Assembly: GCA_018817515.1 (NCBI GenBank)
Contig: JAHIUD010000083.1
Coordinates: 1 to 64,000, forward strand
Direction: 5' to 3'
DNA: 64,000 nucleotides
Origin: Pseudomonadota bacterium
GTDB taxonomy: Bacteria > Desulfobacterota > Desulfovibrionia > Desulfovibrionales > Desulfovibrionaceae
The position numbers were made by a program, and so were the translations under genes. Under the pieces are notes generated by a model, which was not told the DNA's origin, searched no databases, and saw nothing but the letters and a program-made list of their open reading frames with translations. Below are positions 57,393-64,000 of this stretch, piece by piece. Each line of letters begins with the position of its first letter. Within the stretch, counting starts at the first letter, position 1.

Positions 57393-59117
57393 CTATGGAT
57401 TCTTCTCGACCCAGTCCTTAAGGATGGCGCAATTGCTTATGGCTGTCTTGGACAGGGAGGAAGCCTCACGGAGCATCGCATCGGCGAAGAGTTGGTACTC
57501 CGGATTAATCGTGTTGTCCGCCATGCAGAGGCGGTCGTAAAGTAGTTTCACCCCTACCTTGCCATTCAGCCTTTTGGCGTTTGTCATAACAAGCGTTGCG
57601 TTTGAGAATTGCGAGGCCGCCGCAACGAGTGCCGAGCGCGCACTTTCAGAAACGATCGAGTCGCTCGATTTCATGAGCGCGGCATTATATGTCGTGAAAT
57701 CTGTAAACGCATTTGTTATGTCGCCGGCGGCGTCTCCGTTCCACTTCTCCACGGAGAATATCAGGTGCGTGTGCAGGGCGTACTGGCTGAGCACCGCGCC
57801 GAGTTTCGGCACGATGACGATGGGATACTGGAAGTTGTAGCGCATCAGGTAATCTCCTGAGTGGCGCGGGCAGGATTTGTACCAAGACACCGGCTTTCCT
57901 GTCTTCGCATCAAAAACCTTGACGTTCTTGTCCCATTCCCCAGAGCTTCGCAGGCTTTGATAGAATGAGGAAAGAATGGCCGAGTTTGCAGAGCGGTACA
58001 TATAATATGGGCCAGGATGTGTGGCATTCATACCGATTGCTGCGCAACACATCTCTTTGCACGTACTGTTTGATATGAGCGTTGAGGAATCGCTTGTTTG
58101 GTTGCATGCGATGTCGTAATGCTTAATGTCATGCATTGTAATGATCCGTTTGTTATCATTATCACATTTTTCGCAGATGTAATCAGTTTTGGGCTTGTCT
58201 GTGGCATTATCGAATATCGTTAGCCTATATAATCTGTGAGAGTCCTTGTCAAAGCGAAGCTCGGAAAGGGCCGGTGCATAGCCAGCCTGTGGCGTCATCT
58301 TTGCGATGGTGCTGTCAACCATGAAGTCTTCCTGTTGCAGCAGAACATATGTTCCATACAAGAGCTCATTGCTTGTCGTGTTTTGTTTTGTGTTTTGGCT
58401 GTCCTGCCTGTGAAGTGCAAAGCGATGGTCGAATACAACATCGTCGTTGTTCGTGCTGATGAGCATGTCCGCAATGGGCTGAGCGACCTTGAGCACCATT
58501 CCGGCGGCGGGTTGAACGGCAAGCGCCATCTCTGAAGCAAGTCGCAGCGTTCGCTGCATTTCTGCGTTGTCCTTTTTGTCGCTCTCGATGATGACGATGC
58601 GCATCAGAAGATCGTTGCCCGTGACTGTGACTGGGCCAAGGAAGGGCCAGTCGTCCAGGTCGAGCATGGACCCCAGAGTCTGGCGCTCGCTGCCGAAGAC
58701 GACGAAGCTCTCTCTTTTGTTGATTGAGCTCGCGGATTTTTCGTTGTTTGATGTGGCGTCAAAGGAGACAACCACAACGATTTGCCCTGTCTTGTCTACT
58801 ATGCCAGATTCCTTGAAATACTTGATGAATGCCGAGTTGAGCCGGACCAGTATCCTGTCGTTCTGTCCCACCACTCTGTCGGTGTCGCTCTTACTGGCGC
58901 GCTTGTGGACCAAAGGAACGAATCTTGGCTGCCCGCACAACTGCTGCGGGATACTCTCGCCCTGGCAGTTCCATTCGTCATGCACGCGATAGAGCGAAGC
59001 CGTGCCGGCGTGGACGGCGCGGTCATTCTTGCCCGTGTCGACCTGGTTCGCACATGCGGCAACGAGCAGGGCGAGGCCTATGACCAGAACCGTGATTTTG
59101 GGGATGCGCAGATGCAT
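57393..59117 (-). CDS. AT-rich orphan lipoprotein
   Basis: 574 residues. Signal peptide with lipobox: KITVLVIGLALLVAAC, Cys near 22, so a lipid-anchored envelope protein. The mature part is long, with many Asn/Ser/Asp and about a dozen further cysteines, including CEKCDNDNKR and STCKEMCCAA near the middle (disulfides likely). No family recognised; no coiled coil or repeat stands out. Codon use is much more AT-rich than the neighbours, indicating acquired DNA. It is monocistronic: a terminator-like stem lies beyond the DUF134 promoter only, and none is obvious for this gene. ATG at 59117. Confidence 0.75.
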   Translation of the reverse strand: MHLRIPKITVLVIGLALLVAACANQVDTGKNDRAVHAGTASLYRVHDEWNCQGESIPQQLCGQPRFVPLVHKRASKSDTDRVVGQNDRILVRLNSAFIKYFKESGIVDKTGQIVVVVSFDATSNNEKSASSINKRESFVVFGSERQTLGSMLDLDDWPFLGPVTVTGNDLLMRIVIIESDKKDNAEMQRTLRLASEMALAVQPAAGMVLKVAQPIADMLISTNNDDVVFDHRFALHRQDSQNTKQNTTSNELLYGTYVLLQQEDFMVDSTIAKMTPQAGYAPALSELRFDKDSHRLYRLTIFDNATDKPKTDYICEKCDNDNKRIITMHDIKHYDIACNQTSDSSTLISNSTCKEMCCAAIGMNATHPGPYYMYRSANSAILSSFYQSLRSSGEWDKNVKVFDAKTGKPVSWYKSCPRHSGDYLMRYNFQYPIVIVPKLGAVLSQYALHTHLIFSVEKWNGDAAGDITNAFTDFTTYNAALMKSSDSIVSESARSALVAAASQFSNATLVMTNAKRLNGKVGVKLLYDRLCMADNTINPEYQLFADAMLREASSLSKTAISNCAILKDWVEKNP

Positions 59118-59335: not shown

Positions 59336-60744
<1,409 letters not shown>

Positions 60745-60748
<4 letters not shown>

Positions 60749-62880
60749 GCTGGGTCACCTCCGGAGTCGGGAGCTGTTGTCTGGTCGGCGGGGTGGCGAG
60801 CGGGCCCGCCGCTGTCGCCATTGCCGCCATCATTGTCGTTGTCGTCGTCGAGCTTGGGCTTGGCCTCGAGGGCGTAGCCCGGGCAGTCGGGGAAGAAAAG
60901 GCTCACCGTGGTGCCCTCGCCCGGCGTGGAGTCGATGACGGCGCGGCCCTTGTGGGCGCGCATGATGCCCTGGACGATGGCCAGGCCAAGACCCGTGCCC
61001 TGGCGCTTGGCCGTGAAGAAGGGCTCGAAGGCCTGGCTGCGCACCTCCTCGTCCATGCCCTTGCCGGTGTCGGACACGCTGACCCAGACGCCCGGAGCAT
61101 CGGCGGCCACCGAACGTGTGGAGGCCAGGGTGATGCTTCCTCCTCCTACCCCCCTGGTCTGGGCTTCGGTCTGGACCTCGGGCAGGGCGTCCAGGGCGTT
61201 GACCATGAGGTTCAACAGCGCCTGCTTGAGGCCGTCCTCGTCGGCGCAGATCTCGGTCACGTCGAGGTTGAGCACCGGGGTCACGCCCTTGGCCTCCAGG
61301 TCGAAGCGCAGCAGGCCTTGCAGGCCCTCGGCCACCTGGACCAGGTCGATGGGGTCCGGGCTGAGCTCGCGCGGGCGGGCCAGGTAGAGCAGGTCCGTGA
61401 CCACGCGGTTCAGGCGGTCGGCCTCCTGGACCATGGTGCAGGCATACGAGGACAAGGGCTCCTGGCCCTTGAGCTTGGTGGCGAAGAGCTGGGCGAAGCC
61501 GCGCAGGGAGGAGAGCGGGTTTCTGATCTCGTGGGCCACGCCTGCGGCCAGCGAGCCGATGGCCGCCAGGCGCTTGGCCTCGGCCAGATCGTCCTCCAGG
61601 CTCTTCATGCGGGTGCGGTCGCGCAGGAGCACGAGCTTTTCCTCAGTCGGAGCCGCGGCCTGGCCTGCGCCCTTGCAGAGGGGCTGGCAGGCTCCGTCCT
61701 CGACCTGCAAGGGCAGGCAGAGCACTTCCAGCATGCGTCCGTCGTGCTCATATTGCCGCCATTCGTCCGGGCGGGAGCCGTCTGTGGCGGCCATTTCGGC
61801 AAAGGGGAAATCGCGGAAGCTGTGGCCGATGAGGTCCGCTTCGGCCCCGGAATCCGAGCCGTTGTCTCCCAAGAGCAGGCGCGCGGCGGAGCCGTTGGCC
61901 GAGACGATCAGCCCGCCGGGGCCGAGGGTCAACAGGCCGTCGGGCATGTTGTCCAAAAGCTTGGAGTGGAAGCGTTCCAGGCGCGCGGCCTTGAGCGCCT
62001 GGTTGCGGCGGCTCAAGTAGGCCAGGGCGAGGAACCAGAGCACTGCGGCCGCGCCGAGCACGTAGCCGGTCTGGAGCAGCGCCGCGCGGCGGTAGGCGTC
62101 GAACTGCGCCAGATGCTTGGCGGGGCTTAAGGCCGCCACCAGGAAGACGGAGGGCACCTCCGGCATGCGGACGCTGTCGAGCTCGTCGGGCGGCGGGCCC
62201 ATCATGCCGTTTGGGCCCATGCCCATGCCGGGTCCCATGCCAGGCCCTTGGCCGCGCCCCATGCCAGGCCCTTGGCCGCGCCCCATGCCAGGTCCTTGGC
62301 CGCGCCCTTGGCCGCGCCCCAGGCCCTGGCCAGAGCCGGGTCCGCGGGGCCGCAGCTCAAAGGGCAGAACAGGCACGCCCTGGGCCACATCAGAGCAGAT
62401 GCGCGAGAGGCTGGGCCGCGCGCGCAGGGCCGCGAACAGGGCGGTCTTGCCCTGGTAGCGCAGGGGGCCTTCCCAGTGGCCCCTGGTCTCCAGCTCGGCC
62501 AGGATCTCCTCGGGCAGGGCGATGGACTCAGGCTTGTCGTCCTTGGCCGAGGAGACGATGAGTGCGCCGTCGTCGCCGAAAACGCCGAGGAACACGATGT
62601 CGCCCGAGGCGGTGATCTCCTGGAAAAATTCCTTGATGGTCGGGGACAGGTTGTCGGTCATGCCCGGCGCGCGTCCCAGGCCGTGCATGATGCGCATGAG
62701 GTTGGCCTCGACCCCGTGCAGCACCGCCCCGGCGGAGAGCAGCAGGTGCTGGTCCACAAGCTCGCGCTGGCGGCGGATGTTCTGCCAGGTCAGGAAAATG
62801 CTGCCCGCGCCCAGGATCAGGAGCGCGACCACCGCCGCCAGGACCGGGCCTTTGTCTTTGTGAATGGTGCGCAGTTCCAT
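60745..62880 (-). CDS. zraS: ZraS-type sensor histidine kinase with Gly/Met-rich periplasmic loop
   Basis: 711 residues from the ATG at 62880; the open frame extends further but without a ribosome site. Two membrane segments (about 11-31 and 271-290) flank a 240-residue periplasmic sensor. Its last part (178-231) is a low-complexity run of Gly, Pro, Gln, Arg and Met repeats (GRGQGPGMG). PAS-like region near 310-420, then dimerisation/phosphorylation His near 450 in LAAGVAHEIRNPLSSLRG, and ATPase motifs NLMVNALDALPE, SDTGKGMDEEV and GTGLGLAIVQGIM. Pairs with zraR. The DNA of the loop contains 15-base direct repeats (about 62188-62343). Confidence 0.92.
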
Positions 62881-62992
62881 GTTCCTGTATCCGGTGCCAT
62901 CGTGTTTTGGGGGCGTGGCCTGGACGATGCTCAAGCCTGTTTGTGAATGGCCGCTTCACGGGCGGCTGTCAACAATGCGTGGTCTTTCATGG

Positions 62993-63030
62993 AAAAGGCG
63001 GCCCGGCTGGGGGGAGCCAACCGGACCGCC
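62993..63030 (-). terminator. Partial terminator between zraP and zraS
   Basis: Minus strand: stem GGCGGTCCGG / CCGGGCCGCC with one mismatch and a 14-base loop, followed by TTTT. Probably lowers expression of the kinase-regulator pair relative to zraP. Confidence 0.65.
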
Positions 63031-63062
63031 AGAGGGAAGGTCGCTGTCGCGTGGGTTGGGGG

Positions 63063-63569
63063 CTAGTAGCCGCCGCCCATCATGCCGCCACGGGGGCCAT
63101 AGCCGCCGCCAGCGCCCGGGCAGTCGCCGGCGGAGATGCCTGGGCAGCCTTCGCCAGCGCCGTAGCCCATGCCGGGGCCGCCGCCGAAGCCGCCGCCGCG
63201 ATGATAGCCGCGGCCAAAGGCCTTGATGCCGGTTTCCTTCTCAATCTCGGTGCGCAGGGCGTCGCGCTCGACGTTCATGCTGGTGCGCAGCTTGGTGATG
63301 TCGCTGATGAGCGACTGGATGTCGGAGCGCTCGGCCTTGCCGGAGCGGCTCAGGGCCTGGAGTTCGGTCTGCTTGGCCCAGATCTGCTCGCGCAGCTCGA
63401 CGAGCTTGACGTGGTGCTTGTCCACGATCTTCTCGACGGCGGCCTGCTTTTCCGGGGTCAGGGTGGGCTCGACGTTGCGGGCGCGGGTGCCCTTGCCAGC
63501 GGCCATTGCGAAGGCCGACATGGAGACCAGGGCCAGGACGGTGAAGGTGACGATGATGCGCTTTCTCAT
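63063..63569 (-). CDS. zraP: ZraP/Spy-like periplasmic stress protein
   Basis: 168 residues. Signal peptide KRIIVTFTVLALVSMSAFAM with cleavage near AMA-A. Helical middle with LTPEKQAAVEKIVDKHHVKL and DIQSLISDITKLRTSMNVER (heavy-metal-resistance/ZraP family, LTxxQ motif). The C-terminal 45 residues are Gly/Met-rich (GGGPGMGYG, GGMMGGG) with two CPG motifs. ZraP proteins are zinc-responsive periplasmic chaperones. First gene of a zraP-zraS-zraR operon with a sigma-54 promoter. Confidence 0.9.
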   Translation of the reverse strand: MRKRIIVTFTVLALVSMSAFAMAAGKGTRARNVEPTLTPEKQAAVEKIVDKHHVKLVELREQIWAKQTELQALSRSGKAERSDIQSLISDITKLRTSMNVERDALRTEIEKETGIKAFGRGYHRGGGFGGGPGMGYGAGEGCPGISAGDCPGAGGGYGPRGGMMGGGY

Positions 63570-63651
63570 GGGATGCTCCTAGTATGGTTTGCTCAGGTGA
63601 AGGTGAGCTGTCCTTTGTGGACGGCGTTCCGTCCGGTGTTGCCTCATTATA

Positions 63652-63667
63652 AGCATGTGCCGTGCCA
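63652..63667 (-). promoter_or_regulatory. Sigma-54 promoter of the zra operon
   Basis: Minus strand TGGCACG-GCAC-ATGCT, matching TGGCACG-N4-TTGCW except for one base. The -24 GG and -12 GC are at the exact spacing. Start codon of zraP 85 bases downstream. Confidence 0.85.
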
Positions 63668-63717
63668 AATATTTTATGCTGTTATTTTAGACTATTGCGC
63701 AGTCGATTGAAACGGAT

Positions 63718-63748
63718 TTGTGCACTGCGTTGCACAAGCATTGCACAA
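63718..63748. promoter_or_regulatory. Upstream activator site for ZraR-type regulator
   Basis: TTGTGCA-CTGCGT-TGCACAA (63718-63737), perfect seven-base arms, followed by a third half-site TTGCACAA (63741-63748). It lies about 50-80 bases upstream of the -24 element, a usual distance for an enhancer-binding protein. Confidence 0.75.
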
Positions 63749-63846
63749 GCGGCCTTGCGCATGGGCTGCACATGGGGGGCCAGGCTTGACAGCGCTGCCG
63801 GGCGGATACACCTTTATGGTCGAAAGCTTGGAAAAGGAGGCGGCCC

Positions 63847-64000
63847 ATGCCCATCTACGAATATGCCTGCGGAAAATGCGGGAAGCTGTTTGAGGAGCTG
63901 GTGTTCTCTGCTGCGGACGAGACCGGGGTGGCCTGCCCGGCCTGCGGGGCCTTGGAGGTGAAACGCTGCCTCTCGGCCTGCGCCTCGGTCATTGCCGGGG
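63847..64000 (+). CDS. FmdB-family zinc-ribbon protein, N-terminal part (runs off right edge)
   Basis: 51 residues visible: MPIYEYACGKCGKLFEELVF, with CPACG and CLSAC, the FmdB-type zinc ribbon (two CxxC pairs). AAGGAGG lies before the ATG at 63847. Small putative regulatory proteins of this kind are common in Desulfovibrio-like bacteria; function unclear. The C-terminus is outside the window. Confidence 0.9.
   Translation, partial: MPIYEYACGKCGKLFEELVFSAADETGVACPACGALEVKRCLSACASVIAG

Follow-up and report, generated by a model that had tools for sequence, protein, structure and literature searches.

The window (the whole stretch of 64,000 nt that was analysed) carries, near one end, a zraP-like gene followed by genes for a sensor kinase and a response regulator, which raises the question of which promoter drives this gene set, which protein activates it and which DNA site that protein reads. 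A sequence-only reading of the locus had seen here a complete sigma-54 control region for a zra operon and, with ZraR as precedent, a clear prediction of the regulator's binding site. We examined this claim through the layout of the region, its behavior against chance expectation, its conservation within the genus, the spacing of its elements, and its association with the regulator across the family.

A sigma-54-type promoter and four half-sites upstream of the zraP-like gene

Read 5' to 3' on the minus strand, the region passes through half-site A, half-site B, the palindrome formed by half-sites C and D, 50 bp of intervening sequence, the element TGGCACggcacATGCT, and the zraP ATG at 63569 (Table 1). 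TGGCACggcacATGCT departs from TGGCAC-N5-TTGCW by one mismatch and contains both the GG and the GC by which a -24/-12 sigma-54 promoter is recognized. Counted from its -12 element, transcription would start at about 63641, which would place the center of the palindrome at about -87. On the minus strand the palindrome reads TTGTGCA-ACGCAG-TGCACAA (63737-63718), and its position, upstream of the promoter, fits that of an activator dimer site at enhancer distance, as predicted from the sequence.

The near-consensus -24/-12 element (with exact coordinates), the perfect palindrome, the third half-site upstream of it (B) and the enhancer-type distance, all described in the sequence-only reading, were recovered here, and the last is echoed by phased gaps in relatives (see below). 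The control region was not complete as drawn, a fourth half-site (A), as conserved as the palindrome, having been overlooked.

Table 1. Features of the zraP-like operon and its upstream region (positions in the window)
Feature	Position	Strand	Details
Half-site A, ATGTGCA	63773-63767	-	25 bp upstream of B; TGTGCA in 13/13 aligned same-genus orthologues
Half-site B, TTGTGCA	63748-63742	-	11 bp upstream of half-site C, direct repeat; in 12/13 orthologues, absent in G009
Perfect palindrome TTGTGCA-N6-TGCACAA (half-sites C and D), predicted regulator dimer site	63718-63737	both	GTGCA-N6-TGCAC in 13/13
-24/-12 sigma-54 promoter element, TGGCACggcacATGCT	63667-63652	-	TTGGCA and TGCT kept in 13/13 aligned same-genus orthologues
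zraP-like gene (heavy-metal-resistance family)	63569-63063	-	168 aa; signal-like N-terminus (by eye); Pfam Metal_resist
Terminator-like hairpin with T tract, between zraP and kinase gene	63030-62997	-	14 pairs, 11 of them G-C
Sensor histidine kinase gene	60745-62880	-	start taken at MELRT; HisKA, HATPase_c
Sigma-54-dependent response regulator gene	59336-60748	-	receiver, AAA+ with GAFTGA, Fis-type HTH

Gene content of the operon

The zraP-like, kinase and regulator genes follow one another in this order and in the same direction. The zraP-like protein scores 32.1 bits with Pfam Metal_resist (cut-off 29.2), and its place beside a kinase and a GAFTGA regulator marks the set as a ZraP-like sigma-54 two-component operon; the gene for sigma-54 itself is present in the genome. 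The sensor part of the kinase holds two hydrophobic stretches and a Gly/Met-rich repeat. Similar Gly/Met-rich stretches occur in all seven related kinases that we examined, and may possibly act as a metal-binding linker. At the DNA level, the stretch is encoded by a 24-bp tandem repeat (GPGMGRGQ repeats; 62227-62319, minus strand).

The hairpin that follows zraP may be a partial terminator that lowers kinase and regulator expression relative to zraP, with three terminator-like sites found in 1.2 kb versus 1.2 in shuffles. No TGTGCA word, the mark of a second regulator site before the kinase gene, occurs between 62880 and 63062. Searches found no sigma-70 promoter in 62800-64000 and, at the gathering threshold, no Rfam match to an RNA element between 59000 and 64000. 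A frame of 574 aa (57393-59117, minus strand) downstream of the regulator gene has no Pfam match and an N-terminus that resembles, by eye, a lipoprotein signal.

The palindrome-promoter combination against chance and within the genus

A single perfect palindrome is present in the window, compared with no copy in 100 dinucleotide shuffles, and it is unique in the 3.6-Mb genome assembly (approximately 95% complete), where the base composition of the window would predict about 0.003 copies. When up to three mismatches are allowed its excess in the window is modest (5 versus a mean of 1.95). TGTGCA is itself rarer than expected in the window (24 versus 36), and 4 of these 24 words lie within 54 bp, at the half-sites. 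Taken by itself, the -24/-12 element is no more frequent than chance predicts, with 27 matches at up to two mismatches versus 40 expected in the window; four of the 27 have a single mismatch, one of them inside the half-sites. The element becomes significant only in combination with the palindrome and through its conservation, and the case rests on the combination of palindrome and promoter and on the conservation of that combination.

Upstream regions from 13 of the 15 same-genus genomes were aligned (leaving out G006, whose best match is cut by a contig end, and G011, whose sole match is a paralogue), and in these 13 orthologues the four half-sites and the promoter stand out against poorly conserved surroundings. 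At 38 of the 39 same-genus ZraP-like matches, the cut G006 match being left out, we searched the upstream 1 kb for palindrome-promoter pairs, defined as a palindrome with at most two mismatches located 40-110 bp before a promoter (at most two mismatches, GG and GC required). Such a pair was found upstream of all zraP orthologues (13/13), and at 11 of the 25 other ZraP-like genes of the genus (14/25 had none), whereas not a single pair came from the controls, which comprised 38 reversed sequences, 38 downstream flanks and 50 shuffled sets. The best pair in the orthologues is spaced by 49-52 bp in ten cases and by 60-61 bp in three; two of these three (G004 and G014) passed via half-sites B and C instead of C and D, and carry more mismatches in the C-D palindrome.

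Among 40 relatives (own genome counted), a palindrome with at most one mismatch is present in 25, and in 14 of the 15 members of the genus, compared with 5 of 40 for the reversed palindrome. Moreover, the exact composite TGTGCA-N6-TGCAC-(45-70)-TGGCAC occurs in 18 of the 40, and its reversed form in none, although in two of the 18 the sole match is doubtful, that of G011 facing away from the ZraP-like gene and that of G006 lacking the -12 element.

Helical phasing of the gap

An activator that must face sigma-54 from one side of the helix would be expected to leave phased gaps between its site and the promoter. The gaps were measured from TGCAC to TGGCAC, which gives values 2 longer than the spacings quoted above, at the 73 places with the composite in the family survey described below (in genera that are not fully independent, and with some places unlikely to be regulator sites). 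They form three clusters, 50-55, 60-66 and 71-75, and the intervals 56-59 and 67-70 are empty; since the pattern allows gaps of 45-75 only, the last cluster is truncated at 75. The lone outlier, with a gap of 47, is a match on contig C96 that faces away from its gene. The periodicity persists when each genus and gap is counted once (43 values), and none of 5000 uniform draws was as periodic when the strongest of six trial periods (9.5 to 12) was taken.

Four same-genus places have a gap of 75, of which three were inspected (C55 of the source genome, G008:C27 and G013:C49). In each the composite lies before a phage-type frame (L241 966 for G000:C55, L234 1501 for G008:C27 and L139 1502 for G013:C49); that on C55 matches a head-tail adaptor family, and the other two are phage-type by resemblance. 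We take these gap-75 composites for either a control site belonging to a prophage or a chance match of shared inheritance.

Association with the regulator across the family

To follow the site beyond the genus, we surveyed 189 family genomes with the composite gap widened to 45-75, and found the exact composite in 52 of them and the reversed composite in 3. With a close regulator orthologue defined by an E value of at most 1e-140, the composite is present in 51 of the 109 genomes with such an orthologue versus 1 of the 80 without one at this cut-off, in some of which an orthologue may have been missed, given that at most eight candidates were scored per genome (Fisher p 4e-14, uncorrected for shared ancestry). 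The remaining 58 of the 109 regulator-bearing genomes lack the exact composite, an absence that is expected with an exact-match pattern, yet is not explained away by it.

We also inspected 20 of the 109 regulator loci, hand-picked for spread and judged with looser thresholds (up to three mismatches in the palindrome) and no control. Thirteen of these 20 have an upstream palindrome-promoter pair oriented toward the operon, including one locus (L206) with only three-mismatch palindromes, at 115-127 bp, and 7 of the 20 do not. Two loci outside the 13 (L203 and L205) have a perfect palindrome and an exact composite with a poorer -12 element, and the other five have no pair. Furthermore, the recognition helix of the regulator, SRRTLQYKLK, is identical in 32 of the 33 loci read (the best-scoring matches), the remaining one being cut off.

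A model for control of the operon, and its alternatives

We conclude that the control region is real and very probably functional, and we hold with considerable confidence that it comprises a sigma-54 promoter and an upstream activating sequence that serve an autoregulated operon of zraP, kinase and regulator. The earlier proposal of a zra-type operon under sigma-54 and its own regulator is supported as the best reading by the 13/13 orthologues, the 51/109 versus 1/80 genomes, and DVU3381 of D. vulgaris, with three amendments: the control region was incomplete, the E. coli site is not transferable, and the Zra names apply by resemblance.

What is observed is the set of elements with their conservation, phased spacing and co-occurrence with the regulator; the bound protein, its phosphorylation, the signal, the start site and the read-through are inferred in the following model. 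The host appears to be a sulfate reducer of the Humidesulfovibrio type. There, sigma-54 RNA polymerase would wait at the -24/-12 element in a closed complex. Envelope or metal stress would cause the sensor kinase to phosphorylate the regulator encoded two genes downstream, dimers of which would bind the C-D palindrome, with half-sites B and A as possible further contacts that aid assembly of the AAA+ ring. The ring would then contact sigma-54 by a short loop and the promoter would open, and read-through past the hairpin after zraP would yield kinase and regulator in smaller, self-amplifying amounts.

The alternative that fares best, though we judge it unlikely, accepts the sigma-54 promoter and has the palindrome read by another NtrC-type regulator, the neighboring regulator acting elsewhere or sharing the site. 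NtrC-type relatives are indeed many (114 first-look candidates in the genome, of which 8 were scored), and the available part of one report on D. vulgaris describes two paralogous regulators that bind one motif, and a further regulator, DVU0621, that shares the target DVU3384 with DVU3381 (PMC3333781). One genome without a close orthologue at the cut-off also carries the composite. However, the sites precede the regulator's own operon across the genus and in 13 of the 20 sampled family loci, the composite is nearly absent where the regulator was not found, the recognition helix is constant, and DVU3381 is published on the same target in the accessible portion of PMC4641369.

Far less probable is a role of the half-sites mainly in serving or repressing the divergent zinc-ribbon gene (Pfam Zn_ribbon_8) that starts at 63847, with the zraP promoter as incidental. 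The half-sites lie 74-129 bp from the start of this gene, and a promoter facing it is suggested, at one mismatch, by TTGCACaagcaTTGCA (63730-63745, plus strand); yet TTGCACaagcaTTGCA has no GG at the -24 element and owes its resemblance to the half-sites themselves, and the divergent side differs, by eye, in at least 5 of the 13 loci (G001, G007, G010, G005 and G004), where the half-sites and the zraP-side promoter stay in place. A chance arrangement without function, toward which the chance frequency of the -24/-12 element by itself might point, is scarcely credible given the conservation, the control sets and the phased spacing.

The probable autoregulated sigma-54 operon supplies a concrete, testable operator prediction for a regulator that is widespread in Desulfovibrionaceae, and whose targets in D. 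vulgaris, for a regulator of the DVU3381 type, are called hypothetical in the literature passages available. The prediction joins ZraP-like genes from several loci in a single regulon, and the sites offer a natural record of how the distance between activator and promoter may change, in steps of whole helical turns.

A predicted regulon beyond the operon

The suggestion that a genome search would reveal the regulon bore fruit in part, in the form of a second candidate locus. Among the matches listed, the next best palindrome in the genome has one mismatch and lies on contig C96 (L002 680-1520). It is flanked by genes for a multicopper oxidase and a second Metal_resist protein, and the promoter-like CGGCACagcaaCTGCA follows 51 bp further on. 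Two further candidates were set aside: a two-mismatch site between two Metal_resist genes (C105:27057-27076), which has no credible promoter, and the composite match at C55:6938-7035, which precedes the phage-type frame of the head-tail adaptor family. Altogether, 3 of the 5 Metal_resist genes of the genome lack a palindrome-promoter pair. At the 11 other ZraP-like genes of the genus that have one, the spacing is 51-53 bp (six genes), 102-104 bp (four) or, weakly, 108 bp (one), and the pair is located about 0.3-0.9 kb before the matched stretch of the gene, so that further genes can intervene.

In G009 (L161 ~1501-1560), the palindrome lies between divergent chromate-transporter and CusB/HlyD-type genes (Pfam), with the promoter-like TGGCACgaaacTCGCA directed toward the CusB/HlyD-type gene and, on the chromate-transporter side, a TGGCAC without the GC of a -12 element. 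The arrangement in G005 (L148 ~1107) is similar by resemblance.

Taken together, we tentatively propose, as a joint claim that may well fail in one part or another, that TTGTGCA-N6-TGCACAA is the operator of a Desulfovibrionaceae-wide envelope/metal regulon, in which one regulator would control several unlinked ZraP-like genes, one of them adjacent to a multicopper oxidase, together with a CusB/HlyD-type gene in some species, through four ordered half-sites at a promoter distance fixed modulo the helical turn, with copper-like metals, and not zinc, as the signal. The Gly/Met-rich sensor and the multicopper oxidase beside a predicted target are hints of a copper-like signal. Expression of zraP in D. 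alaskensis (Dde_0111) fell strongly under copper (log2 -8.56) in the part of PMC8836040 at hand, which counts against such a signal if Dde_0111 belongs to the same operon type.

Comparison with known systems

That ZraR activates zraP through sigma-54, as the earlier reading stated, is published for E. coli in the text available of PMC7657598. The E. coli system likewise consists of a ZraP-type periplasmic protein, a kinase and a sigma-54 regulator, to which the proteins encoded here are 30% (zraP-like protein and ZraP, over 99 residues), 38.7% (kinase and ZraS, over the kinase core) and 42.5% (regulator and ZraR) identical. However, zraP is divergent from zraSR in E. coli, whereas all three genes are co-directional here, and the DNA sites are not the same. 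No TTGTGCA site is found in the E. coli zraP-zraS intergenic region, where the best palindrome match has 6/14 mismatches; the region instead holds another inverted repeat, ATGACTCGC-N12-GCGAGTCAT, which E. coli ZraR presumably binds. Read by eye, the long inverted repeat in this region of E. coli K-12 (L245 2283-2328) consists of GAGTAAAAATGACTCGC and its complement, with arms of at least 9 bp, the greatest arm length covered by the automated search. The recognition helices differ as well (TRKTLLAKL in E. coli ZraR, SRRTLQYKL here). The E. coli precedent does not supply the DNA site found here, and the E. coli ZraR site should not be carried over to these bacteria.

All three proteins fall below the cut-offs of the NCBIfam Zra models (388.5 bits versus 760 for ZraR, 37 versus 200 for ZraP and 215.4 versus 479 for ZraS), so that 'ZraR' and 'ZraP' are names by resemblance: the system works like the Zra system and lies outside strict ZraPSR membership. 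The regulator scores higher with the NCBIfam models for AtoC (441 bits) and NtrC (433) than with that for ZraR (388), and remains under the cut-offs of all three (714, 558.6 and 760, respectively). Its neighbors here are a ZraP-like gene and a kinase gene, and not the nitrogen or acetoacetate genes that accompany NtrC and AtoC.

D. vulgaris belongs to the same order of bacteria, and its gene DVU3384 is, we assume, zraP-like. Rajeev et al. 2011 (PMC3333781, in the sections available) mapped DVU3381 in D. vulgaris Hildenborough, report a motif tested by gel shift, and describe the regulator and its sites as conserved among closely related species; its targets are given as DVU3382-DVU3381 and DVU3384, within an envelope stress response (Kazakov et al. 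2015, PMC4641369, likewise in part). These two papers are the only ones found in the open full-text literature for the three D. vulgaris locus tags. As far as their accessible text goes, the likeness is that of a GAFTGA sigma-54 two-component regulator acting on its own operon and a neighboring gene, and the difference is that the papers name two target units, whereas here several ZraP-like genes bear the site; orthology between the two systems is proposed from gene layout and description. The system is known in kind from D. vulgaris, and the present operon is a further instance of it, to which the fourth half-site, the predicted multi-target regulon and the spacing rule are newly described additions.
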